Positions 1-15,028 of a DNA stretch of 15,028 bases are shown here, in pieces. The notes below the pieces were generated by a model that searched no databases, was not told the origin of the DNA, and was given only the letters and a program-made list of their open reading frames with translations. The stretch's first letter is position 1; each line of letters opens with the position of its first letter. This DNA is from Candidatus Margulisiibacteriota bacterium (GTDB lineage Bacteria; Margulisbacteria; Marinamargulisbacteria; DT-59). The stretch spans positions 1 to 15,028 of the forward strand of contig JABSQL010000007.1 of assembly GCA_013215865.1 (NCBI GenBank). The letters run 5' to 3'. Made by a program: the position numbers and the translations under genes.

Positions 1-271
1 CACATTCTTTTTTTAATGCATTGATTTCTTGAATCTCCGGCTTGGATAACCGAATCACCACATCAGCTTGGGACAATATAGATTCCCGGTCCATTATAGT
101 GGCACCTGCTTCTTTATACTGTGAGTCTGTAAAAAAACAATGTGTTCCTATACCCGTTTCAACGCCTACATTCATGCCCAAAGCCACGCACTTTTTAACA
201 TCTAGTGGAATAAACGGCACTCTGATTTCTTCAGAATGAATTTCTTTAAGTAATCCTAATAAAAATCCCAT
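1..271 (-). CDS. pntA: NAD(P) transhydrogenase alpha subunit / alanine dehydrogenase family, N-terminal part (truncated by window edge)
   Basis: Only the first 90 codons lie in the window; the gene continues off the left edge. The translation (MGFLLGLLKEIHSEE at the start, then IRVPFIP, a VETGIGTHCFFTDSQYKEAG stretch and SQADVVIRLSKPE) follows the start of the AlaDh_PNT N-terminal domain, whose consensus runs 'vPKE...E.RVAl.P..v..L...G..V.VE.GAG...gf.D..Y..AGA.i'. The ADVV..L.KP ending fits transhydrogenase alpha (PntA) slightly better than alanine dehydrogenase, but this fragment cannot separate the two or exclude a lysine/saccharopine dehydrogenase relative. The full protein would bind NAD(H). 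The start at 271 is supported by a GAGGAAG ribosome binding site just upstream on the minus strand. The short plus-strand open frame over this gene is antisense shadow. Confidence 0.7.
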   Translation of the reverse strand, partial: MGFLLGLLKEIHSEEIRVPFIPLDVKKCVALGMNVGVETGIGTHCFFTDSQYKEAGATIMDRESILSQADVVIRLSKPEIQEINALKKEC

Positions 272-305
272 ATGCACTTCCTCACTTTCTTGTTACTATA
301 AAACG

Positions 306-334
306 ATTATAGCAAGTGTTTGAAAATTAATGAA
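306..334 (-). promoter_or_regulatory. Predicted sigma70-type promoter for the pntA-like gene
   Basis: Read on the minus strand, TATAAT (306-311) is preceded by TGC, giving an extended -10, and by TTCATT as a weak -35 (329-334) with a 17-base spacer. The predicted transcript start near 299 leaves a leader of about 28 bases carrying the GAGGAAG ribosome binding site. The -35 box directly abuts that of the divergent promoter, so the two face away from a shared centre near 334/335. Confidence 0.55.
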
Positions 335-363
335 TTGATTGTGTCTCTAAACTTAGCTAGAAT
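335..363 (+). promoter_or_regulatory. Predicted sigma70-type promoter for the DegV-like gene
   Basis: TTGATT (335-340) and TAGAAT (358-363) are separated by 17 bases. Transcription would start near 370, leaving a leader of about 32 bases that contains AAGGA (388-392), nine bases before the ATG at 402. The rest of the 272-401 gap shows no other clear element. Confidence 0.5.
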
Positions 364-401
364 ATAGACTAATACGTTCTCATAGAAAAGGATGCCTTAT
401 T

Positions 402-2000
402 ATGTCTGAAATCGGTGGGCTACCAGATTCTTTGCCGCCAGTAAATCTACCTTCTATGCCTCATGATATAAATGGCAAAAACCATGAGATTCATGATAAG
501 AAAGAATTAGATCATATCCTCAATAACTTTACAAAGAAACCCCAGGATTCTTTCAATAAGTTAATCCACTTTATAAAATCCGGCCCAAACGCACCTGAAT
601 TATGGGACCGTGCCACTCAAATGCTCGCCCTTTCTATTCAAGGGGTACCCCATATTTCTCAAACGCAGTTAGAATATTTGATCCATACCACTATTAACTT
701 GGAGTTTGGAACAACTCACTCTCAACTCATTCATAATCAGTTGGTTGCCTATGCTCAACGTACATCTTCAGCTCATATCTTATTGGGTATTTTGAATAAT
801 ATGGTGTCCAATACCCGGGAGGCACACAAAAATCGAAACAATATTATTAAAGAACTTAATGGGTATGTTACAGATGGTGAATTTACCTTGTATGGCGAAC
901 AAAGAGAATTTGGACCAATAAAACTTAAGCCAAAGGGTCCACTGGATCTGAACGAAGCGCCTTCTATCCCCACATCAAAGGAAAACATTCCCCCTTCTTT
1001 ATCCTATACACAACCCCAAGTTGAAGAAATAAAACCAGTAGAAATCCCTATTCTTGAATCTCAAGACATTGCTCTCATGCAAATCGATACGGAATGGGTG
1101 TATGCAGCCTTCTACATCAATCGAAAAACAGGGGAATCTACGATTCTATTTGGGGGATATATGGGCCTTGTGGTCCCTCCCATCCTACATACACCACACA
1201 TAACTGACCTACCCAGTCGATTATCTGGATACCCTAAAAAAATATTACAGGGTCAAATTGCGATTGTAACGGATAGTGTTGCCTCTATTTCAGAGGAACA
1301 TTTGTCATCTCACATCAAACGTATTGATCTGAGAGAAGAATTATCTGAATCTGTATTTATCGATGCGTATAATGAGCTTTTAGACCATGGTTTTGGGCAT
1401 ATAAAATCAATTCACCTTCATCCGCTACTTGGCAACTCTTTCAACCTAGCAAAAGACGCTGCAAAAAAAGTATCCTGTGAAGATATTACGGTCATTAATT
1501 CCAAATCAAATGGGCTAGGATTAGGAATGATTATTCAAGAAATTGATGACCTCATCCATAAAGAATATTCACCAGAAACTGTTAGCCAAGAAATTCAGAA
1601 ACTGATTGAAAATATGCGTTACTATGCCGCTTCTTTCAAATTCCAATACCATAAAAATACGGGATGGCTCAGCCATCTCCAAGATAATCGAAAAAAAATG
1701 AAACTCAAATTATTTAAATTTCAACCACTGATTTCTCTTGAAGATAATATTGAAGTTTTTGATTGTTTTATTGACCCTGAACTGGGCATAAGAAAGTTAT
1801 TACAGCGTGTAGAAGAAGAATCTCGTTCTCGAAAAGGGAAATTTAAGCGCGTTGGTGTAGAATACAAGCATATATACCGAACAGCGGTAAACGTGGCCAA
1901 TCGTCTTTCAAAATATAAAGTACCTCTTAAAACAAACGTGGCAGGATCTGTAACTGCTCACTTTTTAGGGCCTAATATGGTTGGGATTTGTATTATTTAG
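402..2000 (+). CDS. DegV-like protein with long N-terminal extension
   Basis: The protein is 532 residues; ordinary DegV proteins are about 280-300. The C-terminal part (about 285-532) matches DegV landmarks in order: IAIVTDSVASIS at 286-297 (family 'IVTDStadlp'), GNSFNLAKDAA at 344-354 in the place of 'LSGTyqsA', VINSKSNGLGLG at 364-375 (family 'v.DS...g.G'), TGWLSHLQDNRKK at 420-432 in the place of 'L.yLkkGGRI', and AHFLGPNMVGI at 519-529 (family 'tHtGPGalg'). DegV/FakB proteins bind a fatty acid between two lobes and can present it to a kinase. Several ligand-contact motifs here are altered (no TSQPS; LSGT changed), so fatty-acid binding is uncertain. Residues 1-284 have no family I recognise: a proline-rich start, predicted helices at about 34-155, a proline-rich linker at 171-220 and a beta-rich piece at 222-255. 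No signal peptide or membrane segment is seen. The start has a good ribosome binding site and its own promoter. No FakA-like kinase gene is adjacent. Confidence 0.7.
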   Translation: MSEIGGLPDSLPPVNLPSMPHDINGKNHEIHDKKELDHILNNFTKKPQDSFNKLIHFIKSGPNAPELWDRATQMLALSIQGVPHISQTQLEYLIHTTINLEFGTTHSQLIHNQLVAYAQRTSSAHILLGILNNMVSNTREAHKNRNNIIKELNGYVTDGEFTLYGEQREFGPIKLKPKGPLDLNEAPSIPTSKENIPPSLSYTQPQVEEIKPVEIPILESQDIALMQIDTEWVYAAFYINRKTGESTILFGGYMGLVVPPILHTPHITDLPSRLSGYPKKILQGQIAIVTDSVASISEEHLSSHIKRIDLREELSESVFIDAYNELLDHGFGHIKSIHLHPLLGNSFNLAKDAAKKVSCEDITVINSKSNGLGLGMIIQEIDDLIHKEYSPETVSQEIQKLIENMRYYAASFKFQYHKNTGWLSHLQDNRKKMKLKLFKFQPLISLEDNIEVFDCFIDPELGIRKLLQRVEEESRSRKGKFKRVGVEYKHIYRTAVNVANRLSKYKVPLKTNVAGSVTAHFLGPNMVGICII

Positions 2001-2047
2001 AATCTCAATATGGGAAAATAATATTAAGATAGCACCCAATATTCTCC

Positions 2048-2077
2048 AAATGTATCCCTTTACATTAGGATACATTT
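2048..2077. repeat. Perfect 10-bp inverted repeat, possible operator
   Basis: AAATGTATCC (2048-2057) and its exact reverse complement GGATACATTT (2068-2077) flank a 10-base spacer. The arms are AT-rich and no T-run follows, so it looks more like a protein-binding site than a terminator. The right arm ends 16 bases before the ATG at 2094, and the element overlaps the predicted -35 of the ATPase gene. The remainder of the gap from 2001 to 2093 holds only a weak imperfect repeat. Confidence 0.6.
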
Positions 2078-2085
2078 CATATATT
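2059..2085 (+). promoter_or_regulatory. Predicted promoter of the AAA_14 ATPase gene
   Basis: TTTACA (2059-2064) and TATATT (2080-2085) have a 15-base spacer, shorter than ideal. The -35 lies inside the loop of the inverted repeat and the spacer contains its right arm, so a bound protein would block transcription. Predicted initiation near 2092 almost coincides with the ATG at 2094. That leaves either a leaderless message or a start at the next in-frame ATG (2115). Confidence 0.35.
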
Positions 2086-2093
2086 CTGTACTT

Positions 2094-3365
2094 ATGGAGA
2101 AGTACACATTAAATATGGAGTTTATATATACGCTCGGGGATGAGGTTGGCTATCTCATAAACGAAACAAAACGCAATATACCTCGCTTGGCGACGCTTCC
2201 AAGAGTATCGGATAAAGTACATGTGGTTACGGGAATGAGGCGTGTTGGAAAAACACATTATTTATTCCAGATAATACGTGATCAGTGGCAAAAAATAGAG
2301 AGCACACAAACCTTATACATCAATTTTGAAGACGACAGACTCTCGCCCATAAGTCAAAAAGAATTGGGTGGTCTATTGGATTTATTCTATACAACGTATC
2401 CAGAAAACCATAAAAAAAAGTGTTACCTTTTTTTTGACGAAATTCAAAATATAGATGCGTGGGAAAAAGTTATTTATCGATTTCTTAAGACGAAAAATGT
2501 GCAAATATATATCACAGGGTCATCTTCTAAGTTACTGAGTAAAGAGATTGCAACATCACTAAGAGGAGATGGAATTGAAACTATTATCTGGCCATTGAGC
2601 TTTGAAGAACTTCATAGAAATAAAAAGGGGAGAAAAATACTGGGAAAAGCAATGATGGACCGATATACAAAACACCTTAGGAACTTTTTGATCAATGGAG
2701 GGTTTCCACAGGTACAAAACCTGCCAAAGGTGGAAAGAACCCAGGTTCTTCGAGATTACGTCAACATTGTGGTATATAGGGACATTGTCGAGCGATACAA
2801 AATTACAAATTTCAGCCTTATTAACTATCTCATAAAAACCTTACTTAACAATTTTGGGTGTTCATTTTCGCCGAATAAATTTTATAATGATGCAAAAAGC
2901 CAAGGTATGAAGGTGGGGAAAGAAACGGTTTATGACTATTTAGGATTTATTGAAGAAGCTTTCCTAGCATTTACAGTACCACTTTTCAGTGACTCAATTC
3001 GTAAAACCCAATCAAACCCGAAGAAAACATATGTCATTGATACGGGTCTTGCACACGTGTTTGATCAAGGAACTTCTCAAAATTTTGGTCGTCTATTTGA
3101 AAACCTTTTTTACTTAGACTTGCGGAGAAAAGGTCACGAGGTGTTTTACTACATGACTGAAACGACTGAAAAACGATATGAAGTTGATTTTGTCTCAAAA
3201 GATATTCACGGCAAACATTATCTGTACCAACTATGTTGGAATGTTGGTGATCACGAAACACTTGAAAGAGAGGAACGGGCACTGAAAATTGCAGAAAAAG
3301 AACTTGGGATAAAAGGTTGGATTATAACGCCCGAAAGCTACCTTAAATATCCGGATGGTGCTTGA
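2094..3365 (+). CDS. ATP-binding protein, AAA_14 ATPase with DUF4143 C-terminal domain
   Basis: The protein is 423 residues, typical of the AAA_14/DUF4143 family. The ATPase part shows Walker A GMRRVGKT at 47-54, LYINFEDDRL at 74-83, Walker B YLFFDEIQ at 111-118 and the sensor-like TGSSSKLL at 141-148. The DUF4143 part covers roughly 225-415 and contains VYRDIVERY (227-235), YVIDTGLAHVF (313-323), GRLFENLFYLDLR (332-344), YEVDFV (362-367) and LYQLCW (377-382). The E/EVD/Q pattern is that of a PD-(D/E)XK-like fold. Family members are widespread, often mobile between genomes, and of unproven role. The ATG at 2094 lacks a ribosome binding site; an ATG at 2115 (GGAGA 14 bases upstream, spacing long) is an alternative that drops seven residues and keeps all motifs. 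The gene ends one base from the convergent purF stop. Expression may be controlled by the palindrome upstream. Confidence 0.9.
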   Translation: MEKYTLNMEFIYTLGDEVGYLINETKRNIPRLATLPRVSDKVHVVTGMRRVGKTHYLFQIIRDQWQKIESTQTLYINFEDDRLSPISQKELGGLLDLFYTTYPENHKKKCYLFFDEIQNIDAWEKVIYRFLKTKNVQIYITGSSSKLLSKEIATSLRGDGIETIIWPLSFEELHRNKKGRKILGKAMMDRYTKHLRNFLINGGFPQVQNLPKVERTQVLRDYVNIVVYRDIVERYKITNFSLINYLIKTLLNNFGCSFSPNKFYNDAKSQGMKVGKETVYDYLGFIEEAFLAFTVPLFSDSIRKTQSNPKKTYVIDTGLAHVFDQGTSQNFGRLFENLFYLDLRRKGHEVFYYMTETTEKRYEVDFVSKDIHGKHYLYQLCWNVGDHETLEREERALKIAEKELGIKGWIITPESYLKYPDGA

Positions 3366-3366
3366 A

Positions 3367-4800
3367 TTATTTAGTTTGTTTCTTTCGTTTCTTTTGATCG
3401 TAAATTTCGATATTTTTACCTTCTAGTGAATATTTACCTATATTTTCAACCTTTATAGGATAATTCCCAGAAAAACAGGCCGTGCAAAACTTTTTCGGTT
3501 CGATTGTTTTAACTGCTTTCAACATTCCCTCTAATGATAAATACCCCAAGCTATCTGCGCCAACAAATTCTTTGATTTCATTCACAGATTTATTATATGC
3601 AATCAACTTGTCTTGCTCTGGTGTATCAATGCCGAAATGACAGGGAAACCGTATGGGAGGAGATGAAATGCGCAGGTGGATAGATCGGGCACCACTCGCC
3701 CGAATCGCCTGGACACGTTGCTTTGCTGTTGTTCCTCTTACAAGAGAATCATCAACTACAATCACATCTTTCCCCTTTAGCACTTCTCGAATAGGATTTA
3801 ATTTAACCTTGACTCCAAAATCTCTTATCTGTTGAGAGGGTTGAATAAACGTTCTTCCAACGTAATGGTTCCGAGTCATCCCAATTTCAAAAGGAATACC
3901 TGAGGCCTCAGCATACCCTAAAGCAGCACTATTCCCAGAGTCTGGTATCGCCATAACCATATCTGCCTCTACTGGGTATTCTTCAGCAAGTATCTTACCA
4001 AATTCCTTCCGAACTCTATGAACGGTTTCTCCATATACAATACTATCCGGTCTCGAAAAATACACATGTTCAAAAATACAATACGATGGCTTTGGTTTCT
4101 GAGTGCTTTGATGAGAATGAATGCCATCTTTATCAATTAATACAATTTCAGACGGTGCCACCTCTCGGATATATTCTGCACCAATCAAGTCGAGCGCACA
4201 GGTTTCTGATGATATAATAAAAGAGTCTTTTAGCTTACCCAATACCAGTGGCCTGAAGCCTGAAGGATCTCGTGCTGCAATCAAAAAGCCCTCTCCCATA
4301 ATCGCCAACGAATACGCGCCTTCTATCTCCGCCAAAGTATCTTTAACCGCTTGCAATATAGACTTTGACTTAGATTTCGCTATTAAATGCAGGATTACTT
4401 CAGAATCAACCGTACTTTGAAATAATGACCCTGAAGCTTTTAATTCATGGTATAGCTTATATGCATTTGTTAAATTTCCATTATGGGCAATTGCAAATTT
4501 TCCTTTAGATGTTTTTGAATACAAAGGCTGAATATTATTCGGGTTTGAAGATCCAGTTGTTGAGTACCGGACATGACCTACCGCATTTGATCCTTGAAGA
4601 TAAGCTAAACTATCCGCATCAAAAACATCGGCAACCAGACCCATATCTTTTACAACATAAAATTTATCATCTTTTGAGGAAACAATCCCGCTACTTTCTT
4701 GTCCACGATGCTGTAACGCATATAGGCCAAGATAGCAAAGCTTTGCAGCATCTTTATTGCCAAATACACCAAATACACCACATTCGTCTTTCATGCTCAT
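3367..4800 (-). CDS. purF: Amidophosphoribosyltransferase (glutamine PRPP amidotransferase)
   Basis: PurF makes 5-phosphoribosylamine from PRPP using the amide of glutamine, the first step of de novo purine synthesis. The 477-residue protein has an N-terminal Ntn-hydrolase glutaminase domain with catalytic Cys7 in DECGVFGVF (a short MSMKDE propeptide would be removed), HRGQESSG (31-38) and AHNGNLTN (105-112). The PRPP-binding loop VIVVDDSLVRGTT is at 346-358. Cysteines 241, 387, 439 and 442 correspond to the four iron-sulfur ligands of Bacillus subtilis PurF, so this is the Fe-S, propeptide-processed type. The C-terminus ends in a lysine-rich tail. No strong ribosome binding site precedes the ATG at 4800; the in-frame ATG at 4794 is possible but gives a very short propeptide. 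The gene lies 44 bases downstream of glnE on the same strand with no clear promoter between, so the two are probably co-transcribed. Confidence 0.97.
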   Translation of the reverse strand: MSMKDECGVFGVFGNKDAAKLCYLGLYALQHRGQESSGIVSSKDDKFYVVKDMGLVADVFDADSLAYLQGSNAVGHVRYSTTGSSNPNNIQPLYSKTSKGKFAIAHNGNLTNAYKLYHELKASGSLFQSTVDSEVILHLIAKSKSKSILQAVKDTLAEIEGAYSLAIMGEGFLIAARDPSGFRPLVLGKLKDSFIISSETCALDLIGAEYIREVAPSEIVLIDKDGIHSHQSTQKPKPSYCIFEHVYFSRPDSIVYGETVHRVRKEFGKILAEEYPVEADMVMAIPDSGNSAALGYAEASGIPFEIGMTRNHYVGRTFIQPSQQIRDFGVKVKLNPIREVLKGKDVIVVDDSLVRGTTAKQRVQAIRASGARSIHLRISSPPIRFPCHFGIDTPEQDKLIAYNKSVNEIKEFVGADSLGYLSLEGMLKAVKTIEPKKFCTACFSGNYPIKVENIGKYSLEGKNIEIYDQKKRKKQTK

Positions 4801-4844
4801 AATTGAGGCTAACAGTGTAGCATAACATTCTCAATCACTGAAAC

Positions 4845-7800
4845 TCATCGAAGAACACATTTATTAAATAAATTTCTCACCTCTTCCAGGCATCTGTTGA
4901 GTTCGGACATGAAGTGATGCACTGAGGTATGTTCTCTCATTACACGCTTCGCTAAAGCTAGAAGGGAGTTTTGGTCTTTAGGAAGTCGATGGGTCTGCCG
5001 ATCTTCAAGTAACTGCAAACAATGTTCTACCCGTCTTAAAAATATATAATGTGTGATGAGTTTTTCTGATGTTTCTATCGATAGGATCCCTGTTTTGGCC
5101 AATGAGCGTAGACCATAAAGTGTGGATTTTTTAAGTAAATGTGGATGCGCTTCAGCATGCTTAAGCTGTAACCCTTGAACCAAAAATTCAATATCTCGTA
5201 TTCCCCCAACGCCGTTTTTGATATCTATGCATGATCGATCTTTCAATTTTGAAACTGCTGACTGACGTAACTTCCGTATGGATGTCATAATGTCCCCTGT
5301 TTTGGCACGGGTTAACAAAATGGGCCTAAGTTGTTGCAGAAAAGTGATGCCAATTCTAAAATCACCACTCACAGGGTAACTTTTAATCAAAGACTGTATT
5401 TCCCATATTGATGCCTTGGTTTGATAATATGCCAGCAATTGAGGAATAGTATATATTAACTCCCCAGACTTTCCGTAAGGACGCAACCGAAAATCGACCC
5501 GATAAACATATCCATCTTCTGTATATGATGAAAGAACCCGTCCCAGGTCTTGAACAATACTCACCAAAATTCTTTTCTTATCACTTTCAACATCACCATC
5601 CATGACAGCCATTAAGTCGATATCAGAACTATAATTCAATTCATTGCCGCCCAATTTTCCCACAGCAATGAGTACTAATGGCATACTTTCCCCCATTTGG
5701 TGCGCTTCCCATAACCGATTCATTACAACAGAAATAAGTGCTTCAGCCAATTGAGATAATTCTATAATAATATCTTCCATTGACCATTTTAGATACATAT
5801 CCCTCAAGCCAATTCTCAGCACTTCTCTTTTTCTAAAACATCGAATATAAGATAGCCAAGACTTTGAATCTGTTATCGAAGCGCTGGCTCTATTCAGTTC
5901 TCTCTCCAACTCTTTTTTAGTGACCTGTCTATAAAGACGGTCCGGTTGACACACCCATTTGAAATTGTCCGGCTCATTTATAATAATACTGGATAAAAAG
6001 TCACTCGATGAACAAATACATAATAAAATGTCCAAGTCTTGAGGTTGGTTTACCATCTGACGAAAATGGGCCTTTTTATCTGATAATTGATCCAAGAATC
6101 GTTCCCAATTATTAAGCGCCATATCGGGATTAGGAGTATCCCTAAGCTTTTCAAAAGCCAATACCATCGCTTTAAAAAATAGGCTGTTTTGTTCATTTTG
6201 GGACATACGACTTAGATTTTTTTCTGACTGTTTATACTGTTTAAACCCATACCCTTTCAAAATAGTCCTGTTCAATAGTTTTCCTGAAAAATCAGAGACA
6301 ATGATATCTACTACATTGCCCGTATTTAGATAGTAACTATCCATCGACATATACCGCATAATGATATTTCTTATGAGCGCTAAATGAACTTCTAAATCTG
6401 CAAATAACTGCTGAGATGGCTCACTCTTTCCCTGTGTTTGATACCCCATACGTTTCGCAAGGTGGTGATATTCTAAAGCTTCTATTGACGGCAAAAACAA
6501 ATCGTTTGCATCCCCTCTGAGCATCCGAAGGGCATTGATAAGTTTTCTATAAAATTGATAGCTCATGATGATTCTATCTGCATCCTGTGGCGTGAAAATA
6601 CCCGATTGCCTTAATATCCGTAATGCTTTTCTTAAAGAAGGGGTTTTAAGGGAAGGGACCTTCTTTCCATGGAGGGCTTGCTGGCTTTGTACCATATATT
6701 CAATATCAACAAGTGCGCCTGGGGAATATTTGGCGTTTATATATCCCAATTTAAAGTGAGTTGATGACTGTTTCTTTCTCAATTCCCATACACTGCTAAT
6801 ATCTAGCGGTTTATGATATACACACTCATCTCTGATCTGTTCTACTCGTTTGCCTAATGGTCGACTGCCACCTATAAATCTTAGCTGTATTAATGCCAGT
6901 TTTTCATATGCCAATGATAATCCTTCGCTAAAATACTTTTTAAATACATCTATATGAACCCCTTTCGGCCCTGAATCACCATAAGGGCGAAGACGAAGGT
7001 CCACTTTAAATATTCCCGCCTGCTTAGTATCGATAAATGACCTTAAAGACTCTACCAATTGATCAAAAAAGATCCCGTTTGGGACAGAATTCTTTCCATC
7101 TGTACATCCATGCCCACCATACACCAGCATCAATTCAATATCTGAGGCATAACCGAGAGCTGAGCCACCCAACTTCCCCAAGCCAAAAATCGCAAATGGC
7201 ACCCGACGTTTTTTTTTGTTTCGGGGTCTCCCATATTTAGCAATTAAATCTTGGTATACAATTTCTAAAGATGTTGTGACAGTAACACTTGCCAAAGCAG
7301 TAAGTTGCTTAGAAAAAACAGAAAAGTGCATTTTATTTATAATATGAGCCAAATCTATTTTAAAAATAGTGTGATCCTTAAATTGGTTTACGGTTACCTT
7401 CTTTTCAGATAGACTCCGACATTTTTCTACTTCACGAAGAAGCAGCTCTTTTGTACGCTGTTTCGAAAAAATAGCCTTACTGTCTTGTGAAGGAGGATTC
7501 AAAATCGGGATCAGTTCTTCATATTGAAGACGGATAAAGTCCTCCCACAAAAAATGACTTGTCCCTAATACTCTAGCCAATTCTTGAAGGGCCTGAGGAG
7601 TCTTTAATAGCTGAAGCCACTGTTTTTTTTCTGACATCTTAAGGACATCGGTCAACATAGTTTCAAATCGTGATAACGCGGCAAATGCATCCGGAGTTGC
7701 CCCCAAAAAAGAAGAAAACTGCTTAGTCAACATAACAAAAAGTTTTAACTGATTGATTTCAGAGGGATCGGTTATTTTTTGGCCTTCTTTGTCTGTACAA

Positions 7801-8429
7801 TCCATTGTATCTTTGACTGTAATTCCGTATGTTTTTATGGCCACTTGTTCAATTGAGATTCCCTTAGAAGACAATGCATTGGATAACATATACAAAAAAG
7901 CGGTTGTATCTTGCGTGACAATACTGAGTCTTGTGAATGAATGAAGTGAATTATCAATTGAAAGAGACATGGGAAACATGGGTGTTTTTTGAGTTAATTG
8001 AGCATTTAAACGCTTTGCGACAAGGGCATTTACCATCTGTTTGGCATCATTAATACGAAACCCCTTCTCAAGATATGAAATCAGGGTACCCAGTTGTTCT
8101 TTGAATTGATTGACCCAGGCTGACCATTCAATGTTCTGAGATATAACACCTGAGAACTGATCAACAATATATACCCTGTCTTTTTTTGACTGCTCAGGTT
8201 TTATGGTAAACACCATCCCTGTTACAATATCGAAATAGTTACCCGATAATAGTCCTGTTAGTAAAGAAAACAAATATGGATAGTTAAACCCTAAAATAGT
8301 CAGAGATATTCCCTGACCTTTTTGCTTCCACTTGAGATGAAAGGGTTGATGGGGCCCAAGAGAACTAAAGATACTAGAATGATCCTCAATCTCAGATATT
8401 GTAAACCACTCAGAATATCTATTGTCCAT
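4845..8429 (-). CDS. glnE: Glutamine synthetase adenylyltransferase/deadenylylase (GlnE) with N-terminal tandem ACT domains
   Basis: GlnE attaches AMP to, and removes it from, a tyrosine of glutamine synthetase. This copy is 1194 residues; the E. coli enzyme is 946. Residues about 40-240 read as two ACT domains like those ending GlnD. ACT1 has ISLTILGFN, LFSLLTGLL and VTGMVFTI. ACT2 follows SLSIDN (155-160) with TRLSIVTQD, FLYMLSNAL, IKTYG and DCTDKEGQKITDP. Two nucleotidyltransferase halves follow. The first has GLGKLGGSALGYASDIEL (416-433; metal ligands D430/E432, D477 in VDLRLRP) and ALVDIEYMVQ (572-581). The second has VGKLGGNELNYSSDIDL (923-939; D936/D938, D979) and GGIRDIEFLVQ (1075-1085), then FLRRVEHCLQLLEDRQTHRLP (from 1130). 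By these motifs the first half looks adenylyltransferase-like and the second deadenylylase-like, the reverse of E. coli. Both catalytic motifs are intact. The likely substrate, glnA, lies nearby on the same strand. The gene is cytosolic and probably leads a unit with purF. Confidence 0.92.
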   Translation of the reverse strand: MDNRYSEWFTISEIEDHSSIFSSLGPHQPFHLKWKQKGQGISLTILGFNYPYLFSLLTGLLSGNYFDIVTGMVFTIKPEQSKKDRVYIVDQFSGVISQNIEWSAWVNQFKEQLGTLISYLEKGFRINDAKQMVNALVAKRLNAQLTQKTPMFPMSLSIDNSLHSFTRLSIVTQDTTAFLYMLSNALSSKGISIEQVAIKTYGITVKDTMDCTDKEGQKITDPSEINQLKLFVMLTKQFSSFLGATPDAFAALSRFETMLTDVLKMSEKKQWLQLLKTPQALQELARVLGTSHFLWEDFIRLQYEELIPILNPPSQDSKAIFSKQRTKELLLREVEKCRSLSEKKVTVNQFKDHTIFKIDLAHIINKMHFSVFSKQLTALASVTVTTSLEIVYQDLIAKYGRPRNKKKRRVPFAIFGLGKLGGSALGYASDIELMLVYGGHGCTDGKNSVPNGIFFDQLVESLRSFIDTKQAGIFKVDLRLRPYGDSGPKGVHIDVFKKYFSEGLSLAYEKLALIQLRFIGGSRPLGKRVEQIRDECVYHKPLDISSVWELRKKQSSTHFKLGYINAKYSPGALVDIEYMVQSQQALHGKKVPSLKTPSLRKALRILRQSGIFTPQDADRIIMSYQFYRKLINALRMLRGDANDLFLPSIEALEYHHLAKRMGYQTQGKSEPSQQLFADLEVHLALIRNIIMRYMSMDSYYLNTGNVVDIIVSDFSGKLLNRTILKGYGFKQYKQSEKNLSRMSQNEQNSLFFKAMVLAFEKLRDTPNPDMALNNWERFLDQLSDKKAHFRQMVNQPQDLDILLCICSSSDFLSSIIINEPDNFKWVCQPDRLYRQVTKKELERELNRASASITDSKSWLSYIRCFRKREVLRIGLRDMYLKWSMEDIIIELSQLAEALISVVMNRLWEAHQMGESMPLVLIAVGKLGGNELNYSSDIDLMAVMDGDVESDKKRILVSIVQDLGRVLSSYTEDGYVYRVDFRLRPYGKSGELIYTIPQLLAYYQTKASIWEIQSLIKSYPVSGDFRIGITFLQQLRPILLTRAKTGDIMTSIRKLRQSAVSKLKDRSCIDIKNGVGGIRDIEFLVQGLQLKHAEAHPHLLKKSTLYGLRSLAKTGILSIETSEKLITHYIFLRRVEHCLQLLEDRQTHRLPKDQNSLLALAKRVMREHTSVHHFMSELNRCLEEVRNLFNKCVLR

Positions 8430-8450
8430 AGTTTTAGTTTATCTCAAATT

Positions 8451-8478
8451 TTGAATTGTTTCACCACAGGTGTAGAAT
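8451..8478 (+). promoter_or_regulatory. Predicted promoter of the histidine kinase gene
   Basis: TTGAAT (8451-8456) and TAGAAT (8473-8478) are separated by 16 bases. Initiation near 8485 would place the ATG at 8487 at the very start of the message. A small palindrome TCAAA-T-TTTGA (8444-8454) overlaps the -35. The divergent glnE promoter must share this 57-base gap, but I cannot place it with confidence. Confidence 0.4.
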
Positions 8479-8486
8479 AAAAATGT

Positions 8487-9929
8487 ATGACTCTCCAATT
8501 TCTAAAAAAGATGGCTACCCTACTTTTACCTATAAAGAAGTTCAACTTTAATTTTGAATATACTGTCCATCGCTTTCTCGTTTTTCAATCTTTGATTTTT
8601 ATCGTATCTATTGTACCTATGGCTTTTATCGTATTCCAGAATAATGGGTATATCGCTTTATTGTTGACGTTTACTATGGCATATATTATTAGTGTAACCA
8701 TATCATCTTTCATAATACGTCATATAAAGGTAGGCCAAAACCGGTTTTTACTTGCTGTTAACGGCGCAAATGATGGCATTTGGGACTGGGACATTCAAAA
8801 TCAAACTGTTTTTATTTCTGCAAGATTTCTAGAGTTACTCGGGCGCCCTTTCGAAGAAGCCGTTATTAAACCGCAAGAATTTTTTAGTTTCTTTTATCCT
8901 GCAGATAAGTTTCTTATCAATAAATTTCTAAAACACCATTTGATAGAAAATAGCATATTTGATTGTGAGTGCCGTCTGAAAAAGAAGTCTGGAAAATTAG
9001 AATGGTTTAATGTCAGAGGGCAAGCAATTTGGGATGAGAATAATAAAGCCCTTCGAATGGCTGGATCTATTCGAGATATATCCAACATAAAAAAAGCAGA
9101 GAACCAAATCATGAAAAAGCACTCCACAATGAAAAAAGAAATTCTAGAACGAAAAATGGCAGAAAAGTCATTAGTAGAATCTAAAAAGTTGCTTGAAATC
9201 CAAAAAAGTGAACTACAAAAAGTGAATCATGAGCTTGACAATTTTGTATACACAGCCAGTCATGACCTCAGAGCACCATTAAGAGGTATTATGAATTATG
9301 CCCAATTCCTTAAAGAAGACCATTCTACACAGATTGATAAGGAAGGGCATCAATTTATTCAAAAAATCCAAAATAATAGCTCTAAAATGACGGCTCTTAT
9401 TGAAGATTTATTGAGTCTATCCAAAATGGCAAAGATAAATAATCCATTTGAGCAAGTCAACATCTCTGATCTTGTGAAAGATGTCCTAGATAGATTATCT
9501 TTTGATTTGTCTACCCATCATGTTGAACTAAAAATTCAACCGTCACTTCCTTCAATAGTGTGTGATCGGATTAAAGTTACTGAAGTATTTGCTAATCTCA
9601 TCAGTAATGCGATAAAGTTCTCATCTAAGCAAAATGACACACCCGTTGTTCAGGTAAAATATGAAAGTACGCCAGAATTTTCGGTATTTTCAATCACTGA
9701 CAATGGCATTGGGATAGACCCTCAAAATCATAACGATATATTCCAATTATTTACACGTGTACAGACCCAAGAAAAATTTCAAGGTACAGGTGCTGGGTTG
9801 TGCATTGTAAAAAAAATAATAGACGCCCATGAAGGAGAGGTCTGGGTCGAATCAGAAATGGGGAAGGGTGCTACTTTTAAATTTACAATTCCCAAAAACC
9901 TGATTGCATCTACAGCCCAAACGGCTTAA
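8487..9929 (+). CDS. Membrane-bound PAS-domain sensor histidine kinase (orphan)
   Basis: This 480-residue kinase has two hydrophobic segments near the N-terminus (about 30-52 and 55-79) joined by a very short loop, so there is almost no extracytoplasmic sensor. A PAS/PAC domain follows (about 85-205: [51 protein letters not shown]), then a charged coiled coil (about 200-250). The HisKA dimerisation domain has the phospho-acceptor His259 in [14 protein letters not shown]. The ATPase domain shows N box [11 protein letters not shown] (369-379), G1 DNGIGID (405-411), F box IFQLFTRV (418-425) and G2 [12 protein letters not shown] (433-444). All catalytic motifs are present. Sensing is probably cytoplasmic or within the membrane. 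No response regulator is next to it. It sits between glnE and glnA on the opposite strand, which hints at nitrogen or glutamine control but does not prove it. The ATG at 8487 lacks a ribosome binding site; a second in-frame ATG at 8511 (residue 9) is possible. Confidence 0.93.
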
Positions 9930-11347
9930 ATATCATAGTACATGGCAAATTCCCAAGGATGGGGTCTTAGATTTAATTCTTTCACTTCATTTTCCATTTT
10001 ATAAGAAATCCAGGTATCTATCACATCTTCTGTAAAAACATCCCCTTTTAGTAGAAAGTCATGATCATTTTCTAGTGCACTAAGCGCCTCTCTAAGAGAG
10101 GCAGGGGTTTGAGGAACATTGGCCAATTCTTCAGGAGGCAAATCATAAATGTCTTTATCAAGTGGTTGGCCGGGATCAATTTTATTCATTATTCCATCCA
10201 TTGCTGCCATTAGCATTGCTGACAATGCCAAATACGCGTTACTACTCGGATCGGGGCATCTAAATTCAAATCGTTTTGATTTTTCAGATGTATGATACAT
10301 TGGAATGCGAATTGCTGCACTTCGATTTCGAGAAGAATATGCCAAATTGACAGGGGCCTCAAACCCTGGGACCAGTCGTTTATAACTATTGGTGGTGGGG
10401 TTTGTAAATGCAAGTAATGCCGGGGCATGTTTTAGAACTCCGCCAATCGCAAACATGGCCATTTCTGACATTCCAGCATAGCCGTCGCCAGCAAACAAGT
10501 TTTTTCCTTTATTCCATATAGACATGTGAATATGCATGCCTGATCCATTATCATTCCAAATTGGTTTTGGCATAAAAGTCACTGTCTTGCCATATTTTTG
10601 GGCAACATTTTTAATCACATATTTATAAATGAGCATGCTATCGCCCATCTTTAGAAGGGGCGCAAATCGCATATCAATTTCACCCTGACCACCCGTGGCC
10701 ACTTCATGATGCTGGGCTTCGATAGGAATACCTAAGTCCTCTAAGATTAACATCATTTCAGATCGAATATCTTGAAGTTTGTCGGTGGGAGGTACGGGGA
10801 AGTATCCCTCTTTGTATCGCGGTTTATACCCCAAATTAGGATTTTCTACCTTTCCAGAGTTCCAACGACCTTCACTAGAATCAAGATGGTAATACCCTTC
10901 ATGCTCATTTTGATCAAATCGAACATCATCAAATATAAAAAACTCTGCCTCCGGACCAAAATATACCGTATCTCCAAGTCCTGAACCCTTCAGATAGGCT
11001 TCTGCTTTTTTTGCAATATTTCTGGGATCTCTTGTGTAATCTTCACCTGTGATGGGGTCCCCAATATTACAATTAATAACCAATGTTTTTGCATGTAAAA
11101 AAGGATCTACAAAGGCTGTTTCTGCAACAGGTTTCACTAACATATCGGATTCGTTAATCGCTTGCCAACCACGTATGCTAGACCCATCAAAGCCAAGTCC
11201 ATCCTCGAACAACTGTTCATCAACCTCTCTAGAGGGTATTGAAAAATGCTGCCACAAACCCGGAAAATCCATAAATCTAAAATCCACTACCTGAATATTT
11301 TCTTTTGCAATAAAATCAACTACTTCTTTAGGTGTCTTTAATTCCAT
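9926..11347 (-). CDS. glnA: Glutamine synthetase type I (GSI-beta)
   Basis: It forms glutamine from glutamate, ammonia and ATP in the cytosol, as a dodecamer in this family. The 473-residue protein (from the ATG at 11347) has the GSI landmarks: [13 protein letters not shown] near the start, [71 protein letters not shown] and [15 protein letters not shown]. The adenylylation motif DIYDLPPEE is intact; its tyrosine is residue 401, codon 10145-10147, equivalent to Tyr397 of the E. coli enzyme. The protein should therefore be a substrate for the nearby GlnE. An upstream in-frame ATG at 11359 exists, but the GGAGG that serves the ATG at 11347 overlaps it, so 11347 is chosen. The gene follows pyrG by 59 bases and has its own predicted promoter in that gap. 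Its stop overlaps that of the convergent histidine kinase in the palindrome TTAA. Confidence 0.97.
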
Positions 11348-11352
11348 GATAG

Positions 11353-11357
11353 CCTCC
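11353..11357 (-). promoter_or_regulatory. Ribosome binding site that fixes the glnA start
   Basis: Minus-strand GGAGG ends five bases before the ATG at 11347 and overlaps the more distal ATG at 11359. The latter has no such site ahead of it, so translation most likely begins at 11347. Confidence 0.75.
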
Positions 11358-11375
11358 ATGATATGTAATCAGTGA

Positions 11376-11404
11376 ATAATACGGCAGACTGAGGGATTAT
11401 TCAA
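11376..11404 (-). promoter_or_regulatory. Predicted promoter of glnA
   Basis: On the minus strand TTGAAT (11399-11404) and TATTAT (11376-11381) are 17 bases apart, a near-ideal sigma70 arrangement that begins two bases past the pyrG stop codon. Initiation near 11369 leaves a leader of about 22 bases with GGAGG. Short arms TCAGT (11369-11373) and ACTGA (11388-11392) flank the -10 and could be a weak hairpin or a regulator site. No sigma54-type GG-N10-GC element is evident. Confidence 0.55.
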
Positions 11405-11406
11405 CA

Positions 11407-13059
<1,653 letters not shown>

Positions 13060-13079
13060 CTATTTATGAAGGAGTCACG

Positions 13080-13832
13080 TTATTCACATACACTGGCTTT
13101 TAAAAAATCGCTGTTCATCCGTGCAATATGGCGAACCGATATTCCTTTTGGGCAAGCGGCTTCACATAAATATTCATTGGAACAATTTCCAAATCCTTCT
13201 TTTTTCATGGCACCTACCATTCCTGTTGCACGTTCATACCGTTCTGGCTCTCCTTGGGGTAGGTGTCCTAAGTGACTCACCTTTGCAGCCACAAACAGCA
13301 TCGCAGACGCATTCGGACAGGCAGCAACACAGGCGGCACACCCAATGCATTGGGCTGCATCCATGGCCGTATCTGCGTCCTTTTTTCGAACCGGTAGGTT
13401 ATTCGCGTCTTGGGCACTACCTGTTCTAACAGATACATACCCTCCCTCCTGCATGATTCTATCAAATGCAGACCGGTCAACGACCAAGTCTTTGACCACA
13501 GGTAAAGCTCTCGACCTAAATGGTTCAATCACCAGCGTATCTCCGTCTTTAAAAGACCGCATATGAAGCTGACAAAGCGTGGTTTCATCTTTGGGCCCGT
13601 GAGGGCGGCCGTTGACCATTGCACCACACGCACCACAAATACCCTCTCGACAGTCGTGGTCAAAGGCAATGGGCGCTTTCTTTTGCTTGGCTAATTGGTC
13701 ATTTACAACATCGAGAAGCTCCAGAAATGAGGCCTCTTGTTCAATCGAAATATTGCCATAGGTTTCGAACTTCCCTTTCTCATCTGGATGGGCTTGCCGC
13801 CATACTTTTAAAGTGACTCGGATAACGCCCAT
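13080..13832 (-). CDS. sdhB: Succinate dehydrogenase/fumarate reductase iron-sulfur subunit
   Basis: This subunit carries electrons from the SdhA flavin to the membrane anchor. The 250-residue protein has the three expected clusters. The [2Fe-2S] ligands are Cys61, Cys66, Cys69 ([10 protein letters not shown]) and Cys87. By alignment with E. coli SdhB, the [4Fe-4S] ligands are Cys162, Cys165, Cys168 ([13 protein letters not shown]) and Cys227, and the [3Fe-4S] ligands are Cys172, Cys217 and Cys223 ([14 protein letters not shown]). Length and sequence fit the Bacteroidetes/Chlorobi/Chlamydiae-like type rather than the E. coli type. The start is well supported: AAGGAG (13842-13847) lies nine bases upstream, inside the end of sdhA, and the sdhA stop and sdhB start overlap as TAATG, so translation is coupled. 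Whether the complex runs as succinate dehydrogenase or fumarate reductase cannot be told from this subunit. The membrane anchor gene is not in the window. Confidence 0.95.
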
Positions 13833-15028
13833 TATTGATAACTCCTTTGTGCTAATTTTATATATTTAAACTCTAGTTTTTCTTTATGAAGATGGGGTAA
13901 CTTTCCAATACCTTGATGCTCCCAAGCAGCGACATAGGCGTAGTTTTCATCATCTCGAAGGGCTTCACCATCTTGGGTTTGACTTTCTTCTCTAAAATGA
14001 CCGCCACAAGATTCTGCTCTTTGAAGTGCATCTTGGACCAACAGTTCCGCAAATTCCAAGAAATCAGCCACACGTCCGGCCCGCTCTAAAGATTGGTTAA
14101 GTTCTCCTTGTGTGCCGGTAATGGTAAGGTCTTTCCAAAATGATTCTCTAATTTCAGGGATTTTTGACAATGCTTCTTTGAGCCCCGTTTCATTGCGGGA
14201 CATGCCACATTTATCCCACATAAGCAGGCCAAGTTCTTTATGAAAATCATCAACAGTCCGGCTGCCATTGATAGATAATAGCGCATCAATTCTGTCTGAT
14301 GCCTGTTGTTGGGTTTCATTAGCGATGGTGTTACATTTTTGGAAATCCCCTGGTGTGACTTTAGACAAGTAGTTTCCAATGGTATACGGAATCACGAAAT
14401 ACCCATCTGATAACCCCTGCATCAGGGCACTCGCCCCCAACCGGTTGGCACCATGATCAGAGAAGTTGGCTTCACCCAAAACAAATAAACCTGGGATGTT
14501 GCTCATTAAATTATAGTCTACCCATAATCCGCCCATTGTATAATGAACCGCTGGAAAAATTTGCATGGGTGTTTGATAAGGGTTTTCACCTGAAATTCTT
14601 TCATACATATCAAAAAGATTTCCATATCGTGAACGGATCGCATCCTCACCAAGTCGTTGCATCGAATCATCAAAGTCCAAGTAAACTGCAAGTCCGCTAG
14701 ATCCGACACCCCTTCCTTCGTCGCAGACCATTTTGGCATTTCGAGACGCCAAATCTCTGGGCACTAGGTTTCCAAAGCTGGGGTATTTTCGTTCGAGATA
14801 ATAATCTCTATCACTTTCAGGAATATCTTTTGGCGGACGGGGATCGTTTTTCTGTTTTGGCACCCATACGCGGCCATCATTTCTTAAACTTTCGCTCATG
14901 AGGGTGAGTTTCGACTGGTACGCACCATGTACGGGAATACAGGTCGGATGAATTTGGGTATAGCAGGGGTTGGCAAAAAGCGCCCCTTTTTTATGGGCTT
15001 TCCAGGTTGCTGTTACATTACATCCCAT
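13832..15028 (-). CDS. sdhA: Succinate dehydrogenase/fumarate reductase flavoprotein subunit, C-terminal part (truncated by window edge)
   Basis: The last 398 or so codons of the FAD-binding subunit are present. The ATG at 15028 is an internal methionine: family members read NAMGxNVTA here, so the N-terminal FAD-binding region lies beyond the right edge. Landmarks seen are [18 protein letters not shown] (substrate-site HPT), [27 protein letters not shown] with the candidate catalytic arginine, [21 protein letters not shown], and [19 protein letters not shown] followed by [13 protein letters not shown] near the flavin. These are characteristic of the roughly 640-residue SdhA of Bacteroidetes, Chlorobi and Chlamydiae-like bacteria. 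The stop TAA overlaps the sdhB ATG by one base. The frame is intact throughout, with no sign of decay. Confidence 0.95.

Follow-up and report, generated by a model that had tools for sequence, protein, structure and literature searches.

A widespread family of GlnE-type proteins with a GlnD-type tandem ACT module, often found without GlnD, suggests a shortened nitrogen-control circuit

The cascade that runs from GlnD through PII to GlnE is a textbook example of a signalling circuit. In Escherichia coli, according to the accessible part of one account (PMC3173338), glutamine is sensed by GlnD and the signal is relayed via PII to GlnE. A stretch of 15,028 nucleotides from a Candidatus Margulisiibacteriota bacterium (assembly GCA_013215865.1, contig JABSQL010000007.1, positions 1 to 15,028; the whole stretch is called 'the window' below) encodes a GlnE-type protein of 1194 amino acids (aa) with a GlnD-type tandem ACT module at its N-terminus, an architecture abbreviated here as ACT-GlnE. 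With bifunctional GlnE (E. coli b3053; PRK11072/NF008292) it has in common two nucleotidyltransferase domains that are each accompanied by a PF08335-type helical domain, but ACT-GlnE has about 245 extra N-terminal residues, and DxE instead of DxD in the first half. With GlnD (TIGR01693, PII uridylyltransferase/uridylyl-removing enzyme) it shares a lead-in and tandem ACT module, alignable over 214 columns; the module is, however, C-terminal in GlnD and N-terminal in ACT-GlnE, and none of the TIGR01693 matches in the 1194-aa protein covers the HD region (profile positions ~320-570). L-GDH180, a large glutamate dehydrogenase with ACT domains, is a different enzyme, and PF21075 (GDH_ACT1) was matched by just 2 of 55 aligned ACT-GlnE family members. 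The ACT domains of aspartate kinase and threonine dehydratase showed 9% and 8% identity, respectively, over aligned residues, and no such model was among the NCBIfam matches. An earlier note, made from the sequence alone, had flagged residues 30-240 of this GlnE (window 7710-8342); the parts of the gene were delimited as follows.

4845..8429, minus strand: glnE-like gene with N-terminal GlnD-type tandem ACT module (open reading frame of 1194 aa, ATG start; Pfam/NCBIfam)
8358..8429, minus strand: residues 1-24, helical lead-in matching the segment ahead of ACT1 in GlnD (AlphaFold2, profile-profile comparison)
8064..8342, minus strand: ACT1, residues 30-122 (AlphaFold2, fold matches, NCBIfam)
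8277..8285, minus strand: ACT1 beta1-alpha1 loop, N49-Y50-P51 (alignment of 55 family members)
8001..8054, minus strand: inter-ACT linker helix, residues 126-143 (AlphaFold2)
7704..7967, minus strand: ACT2, residues 155-242 (AlphaFold2, fold matches, NCBIfam)
7902..7910, minus strand: ACT2 loop, D174-T175-T176 (alignment of 55 family members)
6837..7586, minus strand: nucleotidyltransferase domain 1 (PF03710), motif GKLGGSALGYASDIE (Pfam; D430 and E432 invariant in 42/42 relatives)
5334..6026, minus strand: nucleotidyltransferase domain 2 (PF03710), motif GKLGGNELNYSSDID (Pfam; D936 and D938 invariant in 42/42 relatives)
4860..5228, minus strand: second PF08335 (GlnD_UR_UTase) helical domain, residues 1068-1190 (Pfam)

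Residues 1-241, queried alone against NCBIfam, matched six GlnD models (weakest E 0.039), the best being PRK05092 (E 1.5e-12, residues 35-229 on model positions 736-916 of 940), with TIGR01693 (E 3.3e-10) covering residues 3-229 on model positions 629-842 of 850; the sole non-GlnD match was to a marginal, unrelated model (E 0.018). The whole-protein GlnD cut-off of TIGR01693 was not reached (64.5 versus 519.4 bits), and Pfam ACT matches for this sequence were all sub-threshold. TIGR01693 and PRK05092 were matched by all 55 aligned family N-termini and PF01842 (ACT) by 36 of them at E<=0.01, while only two non-GlnD NCBIfam models appeared, in one member each. Profile-profile comparison of the 55 family N-termini with 17 GlnD C-termini gave a probability of 99.7% (E 1.3e-26) over the 214 columns and took in the helical lead-in ahead of GlnD ACT1; a control with the reversed GlnD profile gave 0.5%. 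E. coli GlnE has almost nothing equivalent to residues 1-245, BLAST matches beginning at residue 234. These comparisons make residues 1-245 a homologue of the tandem ACT module at the GlnD C-terminus.

The AlphaFold2 model of the N-terminal module (predicted local distance difference test score, pLDDT, 85) contained two ACT folds. ACT1 was predicted to comprise strands at residues 30-37 and 40-48, a helix at 53-63, strands at 66-76 and 87-96 and a helix at 102-122, and ACT2 strands at 155-159 and 166-173, a helix at 178-188, strands at 192-201 and 204-212 and a helix at 222-242. Both units have an additional strand ahead of beta1, and the fourth strand, after the second helix, is missing. A structural search with the predicted model ranked solved tandem ACT regulatory domains at the top, some of them amino-acid-bound. 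The proposal of the earlier note that two GlnD-type ACT domains form the N-terminus of this GlnE was thus borne out by NCBIfam, profile-profile, AlphaFold and structural matches.

The remainder of the protein gave two PF03710 matches above the Pfam cut-off in the full 1194 aa, with motifs SDIE and SDID, and PF08335 was matched twice (E 2.3e-43). Its best NCBIfam match was PRK11072/NF008292 (bifunctional GlnE, E 1.3e-132), and the cut-offs of the NCBIfam GlnE equivalogs were not reached (443.8 versus 487 bits for this entry, and 418.1 versus 625 and 349.7 versus 724 bits for others). By sequence, the protein is a GlnE-type enzyme, yet lies outside the curated NCBIfam equivalogs. Nucleotidyltransferase domain 1 carries D-x-E at residues 430-432 (window 7134-7142); both halves of the E. 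coli enzyme carry D-x-D.

The putative ligand loops read N49-Y-P-Y in ACT1 and D174-T-T-A in ACT2. The family loops are D-Y-P-x-x-F in ACT1 (D 53, Y 45, P 40 and F 53 of 55 members) and D-T-P-A/F-F-L-Y in ACT2 (D 54, T 54, P 53, F 55, L 54 and Y 52 of 55). N49 replaces an aspartate present in 53 of 55 members and T176 a proline present in 53 of 55, and both changes set this protein apart. The loop glycine between beta1 and alpha1 is not present here, where Y52 and A177 are found instead; in the accessible part of PMC3173338 this ACT loop glycine is described as nearly invariant and as sitting at the serine site of PGDH. It occurred in 14 of 16 ACT1 and 16 of 17 ACT2 loops caught by the search pattern in the GlnD set, the E. 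coli ACT1 loop being DRPYLF. The earlier note had reported the usual turns as replaced; the loops are as it wrote them, but the replacement proved to be mostly a family trait (D-Y-P and D-T-P), with only N49 and T176 being this protein's own. The conservation of the remaining loop positions suggests that the ligand site has been kept but altered, rather than having decayed.

Relatives were taken as the best 120 rows, window protein included, of 1973 obtained at E<=1e-3, the latter number not being a count of ACT-GlnE proteins. The best 119 relatives have lengths of 1190-1299 aa and share 40-43% identity with the query across 97-100% of it, and a precomputed Pfam ACT domain was present in 30 of the 120 rows. 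A profile of the module matched all 120 listed proteins, partly by construction, several of them having been used to build it or being close to it, and matched 0 of 141 comparison GlnEs. The comparison set had comprised 142 proteins (120 from an ordinary-GlnE search, E. coli GlnE and 21 fetched loci), of which the sole match, L126 (G222), is itself an ACT-GlnE and was left out. Contigs were retained for 80 loci out of 115 relatives, nearly all metagenome-assembled, with titles naming Deltaproteobacteria/Desulfobacterales, Spirochaetes, Lentisphaerae, Verrucomicrobia/Kiritimatiellia, Firestonebacteria, FCPU426, Goldiibacteriota, Planctomycetes, Sumerlaeota and others. A family member is encoded in the genome of Alkalispirochaeta alkalica, a cultured non-pathogen (locus L077). 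Three loci, L124 (G122), L125 (G163) and L119 (G189), had GlnE frames of 1659, 1406 and 1161 aa, respectively, with long N-terminal stretches unmatched by the ACT-GlnE profile, which may be mere upstream open frame or some other extension.

Out of the 80 carrier genomes, 50 chosen for variety were examined, and ACT-GlnE was the sole two-domain GlnE in all 50; five further weak GlnE matches lay in GlnD-sized frames of 881-901 aa. A singular fusion in one odd organism was rejected by the 119 close relatives, the many phyla and the 50 of 50 carriers with ACT-GlnE alone. The fusion of a sensor module to GlnE, as the earlier note saw it, is therefore real, but it is not special to this organism and belongs to a large family. 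GlnE with a GlnD-type tandem ACT module is a large architecture class, and the novelty lies in an undescribed family rather than in a single gene. Among open-licence PubMed Central (PMC) papers, no description was found of an ACT domain on GlnE, under either its gene name or its enzyme names; papers on GlnE more widely, judged by the titles listed, did not deal with it, and the accessible part of PMC9249168 does not mention ACT domains.

GlnD was found in 13 of the 50 carriers: 11 genomes scored above cut-off, and the other two were G056, with a nearly full-length match of 452.9 bits, and G064, whose match of 488.9 bits spans profile positions 1-679. In one carrier, G104 (L138), contig C260 holds a second GlnD-like frame in pieces, with several stop codons, which looks like a decaying copy; an intact GlnD is found elsewhere in that genome. 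For comparison, the phylum of G058 was surveyed (148 genomes, 60 with any PF03710 match), and 56 genomes were kept after G160, G183, G211 and G234, whose sole match, a weak one, lay in a frame of ~900 aa, had been set aside. ACT-GlnE was present in 4 of the 56 (G058, G067, G084 and G222), recognised by a GlnD-ACT-region match inside a frame of 1273-1319 aa. GlnD was found in 50 of the other 52 genomes, which have other GlnEs (49 above cut-off; in two pieces in G136), and was not found in the remaining two, G165 and G204; in at least three of the 52 (G110, G142 and G228), GlnE begins at or near a contig end and its N-terminus is unseen. The occurrence of a widespread ACT-GlnE in bacteria that often lack a detected GlnD suggests a shortened nitrogen-control circuit.

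The window's own genome (78.5% complete) has one GlnE. Neither PII, for which the same search was positive in 13 of 14 control genomes, nor GlnD, apart from matches inside GlnE itself, was found in it. In the class of 27 genomes that includes it, a GlnD ACT region lay inside the GlnE frame in G000, G004, G005, G009, G023 and G025; the module profile confirmed the last five and also detected the tail of the module in G007, where a contig end truncates the GlnE at its start. The check for glnD and glnB proposed in the earlier note thus found neither GlnD nor PII in the seven ACT-GlnE genomes of the class (the window's and six class-mates), at a completeness of 69-91%; in this class, ACT-GlnE is retained in genomes that yielded neither a PII nor a GlnD match of their own. 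In another member of the class, G002, the GlnE is of the ordinary type (1008 aa), and GlnD is present along with two PII genes. The second half of this ordinary GlnE (L105, 1425-4451) is very diverged (GKWGCREPGFFSDLD).

The catalytic halves were also compared. The first half of ACT-GlnE reads GKLGGxALGYASDIE (GYASD.E invariant in 42/42 relatives) and the second ELNYSSDID. Among 18 additional ordinary GlnEs for which both motifs were located, all 18 carry ELN in the first half, and at the corresponding place of the second half 7 have GY and 5 have NY, a pattern that is a hint of swapped half order. Diagnostic columns gave 17 matches for the swapped and 20 for the colinear order. In an unrooted tree of 82 half-sequences, built after removal of the GlnD outgroup and of P0241, P0244 and P0323, three ordinary proteins that were deviant, the first ACT-GlnE half grouped with the second ordinary half (support 99.1/100). 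With outgroup and deviants kept (P0245 omitted, a single motif having been found in it), two ordinary second halves joined the second ACT-GlnE halves and the main split still had a support of 0.963. The best tree showed swapped order in four analyses and independent duplication in a fifth, and approximately unbiased (AU) tests rejected none of the three arrangements (colinear order p 0.233, 0.216 under the mixture model, 0.255 and 0.434; independent duplication p 0.07, 0.09, 0.52 and 0.53). Some trees thus favour, without establishing it, an order of halves opposite to that in ordinary GlnE, or an independent duplication; the sensor would then abut the adenylylating half.

The presumed target of the enzyme, a type I glutamine synthetase (GS), is encoded in the same window. 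Neighbouring features were as follows.

9926..11359, minus strand: glnA, type I GS, presumed target (Pfam, homologues)
10145..10147, minus strand: codon of GlnA Tyr405 (alignment with solved bacterial GS)
8487-9929, plus strand: PAS-HisKA-HATPase histidine kinase gene, between glnE and glnA
402-2000, plus strand: 532-aa protein with C-terminal DegV domain (PF02645, E 1.5e-18) after ~310 residues without Pfam match (Pfam)
2094-3365, plus strand: AAA_14/DUF4143 ATPase gene

The glnA gene lies upstream of glnE on the same strand; the two are separated by the histidine kinase gene, which runs on the opposite strand. GlnA Tyr405 lines up with the tyrosine of solved bacterial GS, at the position that is adenylylated in the enteric enzyme. 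Across 88 loci, many of them short-flanked, glnA and ACT-glnE share a strand in 28, with glnA upstream in 21 of these, and the adenylylation-site tyrosine was present in all 25 linked glnA genes covering the position. The best 119 listed homologues of the window's GlnA share 77-82% identity with it, compared with 40-43% for those of GlnE. The same-contig records suggest common origin or joint transfer as candidate explanations for linked glnA and glnE.

Taken together, we favour, with fair but not strong confidence, the reading that this protein is a GlnE, adenylylating and deadenylylating GlnA at Tyr405, on which an amino acid, probably glutamine, has a direct effect through a GlnD-derived sensor. 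Homology, predicted fold, order of parts, the negative searches for GlnD and PII in the named genomes and the target tyrosine come from computation, and from these we infer ligand, coupling and direction. Because of the kinship with GlnD and the GS context, the ligand is, as a first guess, probably glutamine, and direct allosteric control of GlnE by the module, as read from the sequence, is a reasonable proposal. The amino acid would be bound at the ACT domains and would shift the balance between adenylylation and deadenylylation of the nearby GlnA Tyr405, so that a glutamine signal would reach GlnE inside one polypeptide and not through GlnD and uridylylated PII. By analogy, high glutamine would lead to GS adenylylation, and low glutamine to removal of adenosine monophosphate (AMP). 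More tentatively, and a little short of even confidence, ACT-GlnE may represent a distinct, widespread class providing one-protein glutamine feedback on GS, the sensor and both opposing activities sharing a single chain, with no need of GlnD nor, in lineages of the window's type, of PII.

Several observations weigh against this reading. The loop glycine, usual in GlnD, is found in just 16 of 55 (ACT1) and 2 of 55 (ACT2) ACT-GlnE family members, and because of this rarity and the further changes N49 and T176, glutamine binding by the module is not assured. A PII match (E<=1e-3) was present in 44 of the 50 carriers, which lie outside the window's class (41 above cut-off), and strict exclusion of ACT-GlnE and PII was rejected on this count. 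Given these 44 carriers, and GlnD in three of the four ACT-GlnE genomes of the G058 phylum, the older circuit may still be acting in carriers that keep PII or GlnD. The same three genomes make the GlnD contrast (13/50 versus 50/52, counts that ignore kinship) largely one between phyla. In the window's class PII was found in only 4 of 27 genomes, carriers and non-carriers not being clearly different, and since PII is rare there anyway, its absence from class carriers is by itself little proof. The genomes are mostly draft assemblies.

Some of these observations would fit a module that senses another amino acid or metabolite, as a second input to GlnE and not as a replacement of the GlnD relay. 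The altered loops and the presence of PII and GlnD in carriers point that way, but the module is nearest in sequence to the GlnD ACT domains, regarded as glutamine sensors in the accessible part of PMC3173338, and neither PII nor GlnD was found alongside it in the window's class; we consider this explanation unlikely. A shade less likely still is a module that no longer senses and has become a structural or docking part, for the GS dodecamer or a GlnE dimer, with control arising from a glutamine site elsewhere in GlnE, exerted via PII, or lost. The mostly missing loop glycine and the residues N49 and T176 are what such a module might show, yet the rest of both loops is highly conserved (D in 53/55 in ACT1; D 54, T 54, P 53 and F 55 of 55 in ACT2), and the module is retained in all 120 listed relatives across phyla. 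An ordinary helical GlnE N-terminus, with which the lack of an above-threshold Pfam match in this sequence would agree, is already refuted and deserves practically no credence: GlnD models match the region, ACT folds were predicted, and the profile-profile comparison, the BLAST comparison with E. coli GlnE and the module profile (0/141 comparison GlnEs) all speak against it. The earlier note had named an absence of ACT folds, or placement in a normal GlnE helical domain, as grounds for abandoning its proposal; the proposal withstood this test.

On the favoured reading, that of a GlnE with its own GlnD-derived sensor, the sensor of the cascade's first enzyme seems to be carried on its last in many bacteria, and the relay would be shortened. 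If this is true, GS adenylylation could be glutamine-controlled in bacteria without GlnD, and even without PII, and the absence of GlnD from a genome would be wrongly read as absence of glutamine control of GS. The module, standing on a different enzyme, would also offer a direct test case for the reading of glutamine by GlnD-type tandem ACT domains.

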